Source: an uncultured Armatimonadota bacterium (GTDB lineage: Bacteria > Armatimonadota > Armatimonadia > Armatimonadales > Armatimonadaceae). From it: a DNA stretch of 64,000 bases. Position numbers and translations under genes: made by a program. The notes under the pieces are model-generated. The model had not been told where the DNA came from. It did no database searches and saw nothing but the letters and a program-made list of their open reading frames with translations. Position 1 is the first letter of the stretch; the number at the start of each line of letters is the position of its first letter. This document shows positions 36,334-38,060 of the stretch, one piece after another. Location: the NCBI GenBank assembly GCA_903910385.1, contig CAIVZM010000033.1, positions 1-64,000 of the forward strand, written 5' to 3'.

Positions 36334-37782
36334 TTAATACCGATAGGTATCGCTCTTGTAAGGGCCTTCGGTGGTGACGCCAATATAGGCAGCCTGCTCC
36401 GAGGTGAGTTCGGTGAGCATCGCGTTCAACTTGGAAAGCTGTAGACGCGCTACCTTCTCGTCCAGATGCTTGGGAAGGACATAGACTTGACTGACTTCAT
36501 ACTTGTCCGGGTGTTGCCACAGTTCCATTTGCGCCAGAACCTGGTTCGCAAAGGATGAACTCATGACATACGACGGATGCCCAGTGCCACAGCCCAGATT
36601 GACCAGACGACCTTTGGCAAGGAGGATAATCCGCTTTCCATCCGGCCAAATGACATGATCGACCTGCGGCTTGATTTCTTCCCACTGGAGATCCTCGAGA
36701 CCGGCGACATCGATCTCGTTATCGAAATGACCGATGTTACAGACAATCGACTGATTGTTCATCTTATCCATGTGGGCGCGGGTGATGACATTCTTGTTAC
36801 CGGTGGTGGTGACAAAGATATCCGCCTTGTCGGCGGCGTATTCCATCGTGACAACACGGAAACCTTCCATCGCCGCTTGCAGGGCGCAGATAGGATCGAC
36901 TTCGGTAACCCAGACCTGAGCGGAAAGGGCGCGCAGAGCCTGCGCGGAACCCTTACCGACATCGCCATAACCGCAGACAACGGCGATTTTCCCGGCGATC
37001 ATAACGTCGGTGGCACGCTTGATACCATCCACAAGGGATTCGCGGCAACCATACAGGTTATCGAACTTGCTCTTGGTGACGGAGTCGTTGACATTGAAGG
37101 CGCGCACTTTCAGATCGCCTTTCTTGCTCATCTCCAGAAGGCGGTGGACGCCGGTGGTGGTTTCCTCGGTGACGCCCTGAATCTGCGCGAGGCGCGTAGA
37201 ATACCATGTTGGGTCAGTCGTCAGTTTCGCTTTGATGCTGGCGAAAAGAATGGTCTCTTCTTCGGTACCCGGATTATCCAGAACAGACAAATCTTTTTCC
37301 GCTTTGGAACCGAGGTGGAGCAGCAGGGTCGCGTCTCCGCCATCGTCGAGGATCATATTGGTGTAACCGCCATCCGTCCACTCGAAAATGCGGTGGGTGT
37401 AGTCCCAGTACTCTTCGAGGGTCTCGCCCTTCTTGGCGAAGACGGGAGTGCCATTGTAGGCGATAGCGGCGGCGGCATGATCCTGTGTGGAGAAAATATT
37501 ACAACTTGCCCATCGAACCTTCGCGCCCAGCGCTTCCAGCGTCTCGATTAGGACAGCGGTCTGGATGGTCATATGGAGCGATCCGGTGATCCGGGCGCCC
37601 TTGAGCGGTTGTGCAGCGGCGTATTCGGATCGGATGCTCATCAGACCGGGCATTTCGGTCTCGGCAATCGCGATTTCCTTACGGCCCCAGGCGGCGAGAT
37701 TGAAATCGGCGACGGCATAATCTGTTGCGAAATCGGTGGTGAGCGTTGCGCTCGTCGTTTCGGTCATTACGGTAACTCCCAC
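36334..37782 (-). CDS. ahcY: Adenosylhomocysteinase
   Basis: A 482-residue SAH hydrolase that splits S-adenosylhomocysteine into adenosine and homocysteine and so relieves product inhibition of methyltransferases. It has '[20 protein letters not shown]', '[18 protein letters not shown]', the catalytic lysine/aspartate block '[19 protein letters not shown]', the NAD-binding '[17 protein letters not shown]' and the '[15 protein letters not shown]' end, with C-terminal 'YKSDTYRY' (Lys-x-x-x-Tyr-Arg-Tyr). Expression is controlled by the SAH riboswitch just upstream. It stands alone as an operon. Confidence 0.97.
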
Positions 37783-37793
37783 TAAAAAATGTC

Positions 37794-37823
37794 AAAAAAA
37801 AACCCACCCCGGGGTTTTTCCCG
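37794..37823 (-). terminator. Expression platform of the SAH riboswitch
   Basis: Between the aptamer and ahcY lies CCACGGG-AAAAA-CCCCGGGGTGG followed by nine T on the minus strand. It can fold as an intrinsic terminator or be kept open by the aptamer, as expected for an ON switch. Confidence 0.75.
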
Positions 37824-37884
37824 TGGTGAGCGCGGTTAGTGTGCTGAGCCTGGTCCGCGTGTGCGGGTTGCAGCGCTCCTCAGC
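37824..37884 (-). ncRNA. S-adenosylhomocysteine (SAH) riboswitch
   Basis: The minus strand reads GCTGAGGAGCGCTGCAACCC, then CCAGGCTCAGC and CGCTCACC. These are the conserved blocks of the SAH riboswitch: P1 strand 'GAGGAGCGCUGC', the pairing 'CAGGCUC', and the terminal 'GCUCACC' pseudoknot strand. It lies directly upstream of ahcY, the canonical target. SAH binding should switch ahcY on. Confidence 0.95.
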
Positions 37885-37892
37885 ATAGATTC

Positions 37893-37898
37893 ATTATA
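37893..37898 (-). promoter_or_regulatory. TATAAT box upstream of the SAH riboswitch
   Basis: A consensus -10 (TATAAT on the minus strand) ends 8 nt before the aptamer, placing the transcription start at its 5' edge. No good -35 is visible. Confidence 0.7.
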
Positions 37899-38004
37899 TC
37901 ACTTCGTTCTGCAATACGATGCTCACATCGCGATGAAATATAGAACGACATAGACAGAAAGCGCCGTTGAAAAGCATGTCCTGTATTTCTGTCATCGATG
38001 AAAC

Positions 38005-38043
38005 AATAGAAAGCGGGCAGGGAGTTCCCACCTGCTTTCTATT
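38005..38043. terminator. Hairpin after hslU
   Basis: AATAGAAAG / CTTTCTATT (9 bp) plus an inner CAGG/CCTG. The T tract (ATTTTTGATTT) is on the plus-strand side, so polarity is unclear; it ends 18 nt from the hslU stop. Confidence 0.5.
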
Positions 38044-38060
38044 TTTGATTTGCAGACAAA

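Follow-up and report, generated by a model that had tools for sequence, protein, structure and literature searches.

An S-adenosylhomocysteine riboswitch, predicted to be a transcriptional ON switch, accompanies one proteobacterial-type ahcY in Armatimonadota

The ahcY gene of an uncultured Armatimonadota bacterium is preceded by a riboswitch of the S-adenosylhomocysteine (SAH) class, RF01057, which most probably acts as a transcriptional ON switch. Armatimonadota appear to inherit this switch and one proteobacterial-type ahcY as a unit, and the family to which the analysed genome belongs most likely received both from Betaproteobacteria. Judged from sequence comparisons, this reading as a whole has a probability of roughly 0.88. 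The leader and its gene lie on the minus strand of the window, the 64,000-nucleotide stretch of DNA that was analysed.

SAH hydrolase (adenosylhomocysteinase, AhcY) converts SAH into homocysteine and adenosine, and control of this step is the known role of the riboswitch class. As far as the accessible part of the source goes, a SAH riboswitch precedes ahcY in every genome examined from seven lineages of beta- and gamma-Proteobacteria, and often metF as well (PMC4239095). The same part of that source describes SahR regulons, which place ahcY of delta- and alpha-Proteobacteria under SAH-responsive control; SahR is a protein regulator, whereas the regulator considered here is an RNA. SAH riboswitches are also reported from Mycobacteriaceae (PMC3766115, accessible part). 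The known class binds SAH with a Kd of 20 nM and SAM with an affinity at least 1000-fold lower (PMC11188199, accessible part). The leader described here shares with known SAH riboswitches the aptamer sequence and structure, the place before ahcY and the expected ON logic, but differs in its host, a member of the Armatimonadota. A search that covered few subscription papers found no literature in which riboswitches are mentioned together with Fimbriimonas, Armatimonadota or Armatimonadetes, or together with both Armatimonad- and S-adenosylhomocysteine.

Aptamer and controlled gene

The initial annotation had proposed a complete SAH riboswitch unit before ahcY, and promoter, aptamer, terminator and gene are all found at the place given. 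In the covariance search, RF01057 scores 49.1 bits at positions 37887 to 37821 of the minus strand, above its gathering score of 37 (E 4.9e-6 in the 64-kb window). The alignment spans model positions 1-78 of 78. Within 37700-38060, RF01057 is the only Rfam family with an E-value up to 1 (E 2.8e-8). The models for the SAM/SAH (RF01727) and SAM-I (RF00162) riboswitches, which are related in ligand and pathway, gave no match in this leader at E up to 1. The blocks quoted earlier, GAGGAGCGCTGC, CAGGCTC and GCTCACC (the last at 37831-37825), are confirmed on the minus strand, as are the TATAAT box and the nine-T hairpin. The conserved blocks of the aptamer agree with the consensus of the model.

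The predicted structure has three main elements. The P1 helix (37842-37885) joins 37885-37880 with 37847-37842 by six pairs and surrounds the conserved GAGGAGCG.UGC core, a feature of the class that is present in the window. The P2 hairpin (37855-37866), with a CCGC/GCGG stem and an ACAC loop, is given by both the fold and the model alignment. A pseudoknot (37828-37878) can form by complementarity between GAGCGC (37878-37873) and GCGCTC (37833-37828); the structure line of Rfam does not draw it, and we take it to be P4 of the known class.

Covariation was assessed in the 66 of 69 Armatimonadota leaders that could be parsed. P1 covaries, with 319 of 371 cells paired and 53 distinct arm pairs, compared with a mean of 260 and a maximum of 278 in 500 shuffles. 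P4 is paired in 29 of 30 distinct cells, but it is almost invariant in the phylum, which leaves its covariation uninformative and makes the match of the strands a weak proof of pairing. By folding energy, the 100-nt leader is more stable than shuffled sequence (z -2.56), while neither the aptamer by itself (z -0.75) nor the hairpin taken in isolation (z 0.32) stands out. Folding energy, being weak for these two parts, was set aside as a proof of structure; the argument is carried instead by the covariance model and the relatives.

The controlled gene was correctly named in the initial annotation. Its reading frame (36334-37767, minus strand, 477 aa) matches the NCBIfam equivalog TIGR00936 with 592.9 bits against a cut-off of 497.6, and is the sole AhcY match in the genome. 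The ATG lies at 37767-37765, and the distance from the end of the aptamer to the start of ahcY (37767) is 53 nt.

Leader layout and proposed switching

Upstream of the aptamer, a perfect TATAAT at 37898-37893 is joined by TG at 37901-37900 in the element TGATATAAT (37893-37901, minus strand). On this sequence, the predicted promoter is of the extended -10 type. A pattern scan for sigma-70 promoters found none, because no -35 hexamer is recognisable, and a register test across relatives was used in its place. Of 69 Armatimonadota leaders, 56 have a hexamer that agrees with TATAAT in at least 5 of 6 positions immediately before the aptamer, compared with 0, 2, 0 and 0 of 69 in four control windows placed farther upstream. 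The TG of an extended -10 element is in place in 33 of the 69 leaders.

An intrinsic terminator (37794-37831, minus strand) was recovered both by the pattern scan and in the leader fold, with the stem GCUCACC.CGGG / CCCG.GGUGGGU followed by nine U. The hairpin occupies 37831-37802 and the nine T 37802-37794. Its 5' arm, which begins at 37831, includes GCTC, four bases that also belong to the 3' strand of P4. Since these bases are common to both, P4 and the terminator should be mutually exclusive. The minimum-free-energy fold of the ligand-free leader is the terminator state. A Shine-Dalgarno-like GGGAG (37776-37780, minus strand) lies 8 nt before the ATG. Both it and the ATG are outside the terminator hairpin, and GGGAG is also outside the aptamer.

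The pairings point to the following mechanism. From the extended -10 promoter, transcription would begin at the aptamer or shortly before it. At low SAH, the 5' arm of the terminator would capture the P4 3' strand, and RNA polymerase would stop before ahcY. At high SAH, the pseudoknot would be stabilised and P4 would keep its 3' strand, which would prevent the terminator. SAH hydrolase would then be made, and the inhibitor SAH would be removed and recycled to homocysteine and adenosine. Since only one of the P4 and terminator pairings can form at a time, SAH is expected to prevent termination and to switch ahcY on.

The terminator platform across relatives

Among the 69 Armatimonadota leaders, 63 scored as having a T-tailed hairpin that uses the P4 3' strand, compared with a mean of about 4 for shuffled downstream sequence. 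By family, the counts are 11 of 11 in f1 (the family of the window), 51 of 57 in f15 (which holds Fimbriimonas) and 1 of 1 in f14. The remaining 6 of 69 were not scored; G104 went unscored since its P4 strand reads GCGCCC, and its terminator is present by eye. In a swap test of 68 of the 69 leaders, terminator arms from the same leader paired better than swapped arms: a stem score of at least 24 was reached by 61 of 68 leaders with their own terminator arms and by 220 of 680 combinations with swapped arms.

Outside the phylum, mostly in Betaproteobacteria, 18 of 62 leaders have a P4-overlapping terminator (shuffled mean 3.8). This count used 62 of 80 named relatives. Those dropped comprise 10 without a riboswitch match, two Armatimonadota already counted (L094 and L103) and six unparsed leaders (L035, L044, L050, L054, L067 and L102). 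A platform unique to Armatimonadota had been entertained on a first parse, in which 4 of 39 leaders from other phyla qualified, and was rejected when the widened parse gave 18 of 62. The P4-overlapping terminator is therefore not new, only unusually regular in Armatimonadota, where it is the rule, whereas it is a minority form in other phyla.

Among the Burkholderiales, some leaders (for example L061, L065, L081 and L091) have the same P4-strand 5' arm and T run. The terminator-type leaders of this order have shorter stems, and many relatives carry CT-rich rather than T-rich tails. In Oxalobacteraceae-type leaders, the P4 strand appears to pair near the ribosome-binding site instead.

This last arrangement bears on translational control, in which the ribosome-binding site would be masked by the hairpin or by the 3' strand of P4, and the T run would be incidental. 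In Oxalobacteraceae and their relatives (L071, L078, L083, L097 and L100), GGGCGTG around the Shine-Dalgarno sequence and start of ahcY is a possible pairing partner of the P4 strand, and some leaders of the Fimbriimonas family (G098 and G128) are without the terminator. For the window such control is improbable, given that GGGAG and the ATG stand clear of the hairpin, that nine T follow directly after the stem, and that a T-rich tail is present in 63 of 69 leaders. These features favour transcriptional termination. In G098 (L199) and G128 (L198), where ahcY starts very near the P4 strand, control may have shifted from transcription to translation.

Spread in the phylum and tie to one ahcY type

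The initial annotation had also suggested that the class extends beyond Proteobacteria and Actinobacteria, provided its guess at the phylum was right. The lineage is Armatimonadota, and the extension is borne out across the phylum: RF01057 is found in 69 of 291 Armatimonadota genomes (E up to 0.001), in 64 over the cut-off and in 5 under it. None of 14 control genomes gave a match. By family, the motif occurs in 11 of 12 genomes of f1, in 57 of 85 genomes of f15 and in one genome of f14. The phylum is identified by two members of f15, G150 and G089, whose match positions and scores are identical to those in the genomes of Armatimonadetes bacterium Uphvl-Ar1 (L094) and a Fimbriimonas sp. (L103). 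The family f2, from the same order as the window, has the motif in 0 of 7 genomes. The riboswitch is phylum-wide but patchy in Armatimonadota.

All 69 genomes carry a single match, at ahcY only, whereas 33 of 80 named-relative genomes carry two or three. The 9.0-Mb genome of bacterium isolate SCN18 (L035) also has a RF01057 match, and its AhcY is 83% identical to that of the window.

The gene directly downstream of the motif is ahcY in 68 of 69 Armatimonadota regions; in the 69th (G086), the contig ends within what reads as the N-terminus of AhcY. AhcY matches were obtained in 270 of the 291 phylum genomes. A close type, at least about 72% identical to the AhcY of the window, is present in 67 genomes, and the riboswitch accompanies it in 67 of 67. 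The other 203 AhcY-positive genomes include one with the riboswitch (G069), where it precedes a contig-end ahcY fragment 82% identical to the gene product of the window. Fisher's test, which ignores relatedness, gives p 2e-63 for the association. A search with Rfam models upstream of other ahcY types, covering 32 regions out of about 200 such genomes, found no riboswitch, only a tRNA. The riboswitch goes strictly with one proteobacterial-type ahcY in Armatimonadota. This link, the patchy phylum-wide pattern and the P4 strand that doubles as a terminator arm are features that the initial annotation had not noticed.

Two gene models may reflect assembly errors. In G146 (L174), AhcY appears split over two frames, and in G130 it appears partly duplicated on a second contig.

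The association also bears on whether the aptamer is a decayed relic carried along with ahcY, or binds another ligand such as SAM. Recognition of SAH is predicted from sequence, and the five matches below the Rfam cut-off could be taken as signs of decay. Even so, such a reading is very improbable in view of the conserved blocks that fit the model consensus, a P1 kept by compensatory change across the phylum, and the strict link with ahcY. The leader gives no match to the SAM/SAH or SAM families, and a SAM riboswitch is present elsewhere in the genome, before a gene of its own.

That other element is the single SAM-I riboswitch (RF00162, 60.8 bits) of the genome, at 38088-38228 of contig C31 (L241). 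The open reading frame downstream of it (locus 1760-2896) is presumably metK. RNA elements thus seem to control both the synthesis of SAM and the recycling of SAH in this genome.

Origin of the regulated gene

The history of the gene was approached through an AhcY tree built from 85 chosen rows of 180 extracted. The named relatives in it are the 80 closest to the protein of the window, which biases the sampling of the tree. The family of the window, f1, forms one clade (100/100) that joins Burkholderiales and unassigned relatives (97/80). The family f15 forms a separate clade (100/91). One branch (95/90) holds all sampled Proteobacteria together with f1 and excludes f15. The leader L065, in which the P4-overlapping terminator is clearly present, belongs to the group nearest f1. 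Geobacter-type relatives of the AhcY of the window are without the riboswitch.

Since f1 and f15 are placed apart, the tree suggests two acquisitions of the enzyme with its switch, that is, two transfers of ahcY and riboswitch into Armatimonadota. In three genera of f15 (g56, g76 and g83), some species have the riboswitch and the close ahcY, and others have only a distant ahcY type, which lacks the riboswitch and has about 45% identity within the part that matches. The alternation looks as if ahcY had been repeatedly replaced. A fuller proposal is that aptamer, terminator platform and ahcY moved between phyla as one cassette, which Armatimonadota would have acquired at least twice from different sources (Burkholderiales for the family of the window), with species of one genus alternating with the distant-type gene. 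We regard this proposal as tentative, at slightly short of even odds.

A single origin would account for the same distribution in another way: the unit could be ancestral to both families and lost elsewhere, or could have entered once and spread within the phylum. Such a history, which rivals the proposed transfers and not the mechanism, is a possibility of about one part in three by our judgement. The P4-overlapping terminator is common to both families, and an AU test leaves a single clade of f1 and f15 unrejected (p 0.239). The forced tree is nevertheless 14.5 log units worse, and the free tree groups f1 with Burkholderiales and leaves f15 outside the proteobacterial branch. The absence of the motif from all seven f2 genomes also speaks against common ancestry, as does the occurrence of this type of terminator in several Burkholderiales. 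Shared gene order was tried as a sign of vertical descent and discarded: HslU lies upstream in the window and in 0 of 68 other regions.

Implications

The occurrence in Armatimonadota extends a known riboswitch class from the Proteobacteria and Mycobacteriaceae of the cited papers to a distant and little-cultured phylum. Its predicted design is compact, with a strand of the pseudoknot doubling as part of the terminator arm. The distribution offers a clear example of a riboswitch that tracks one lineage of a gene rather than its host.
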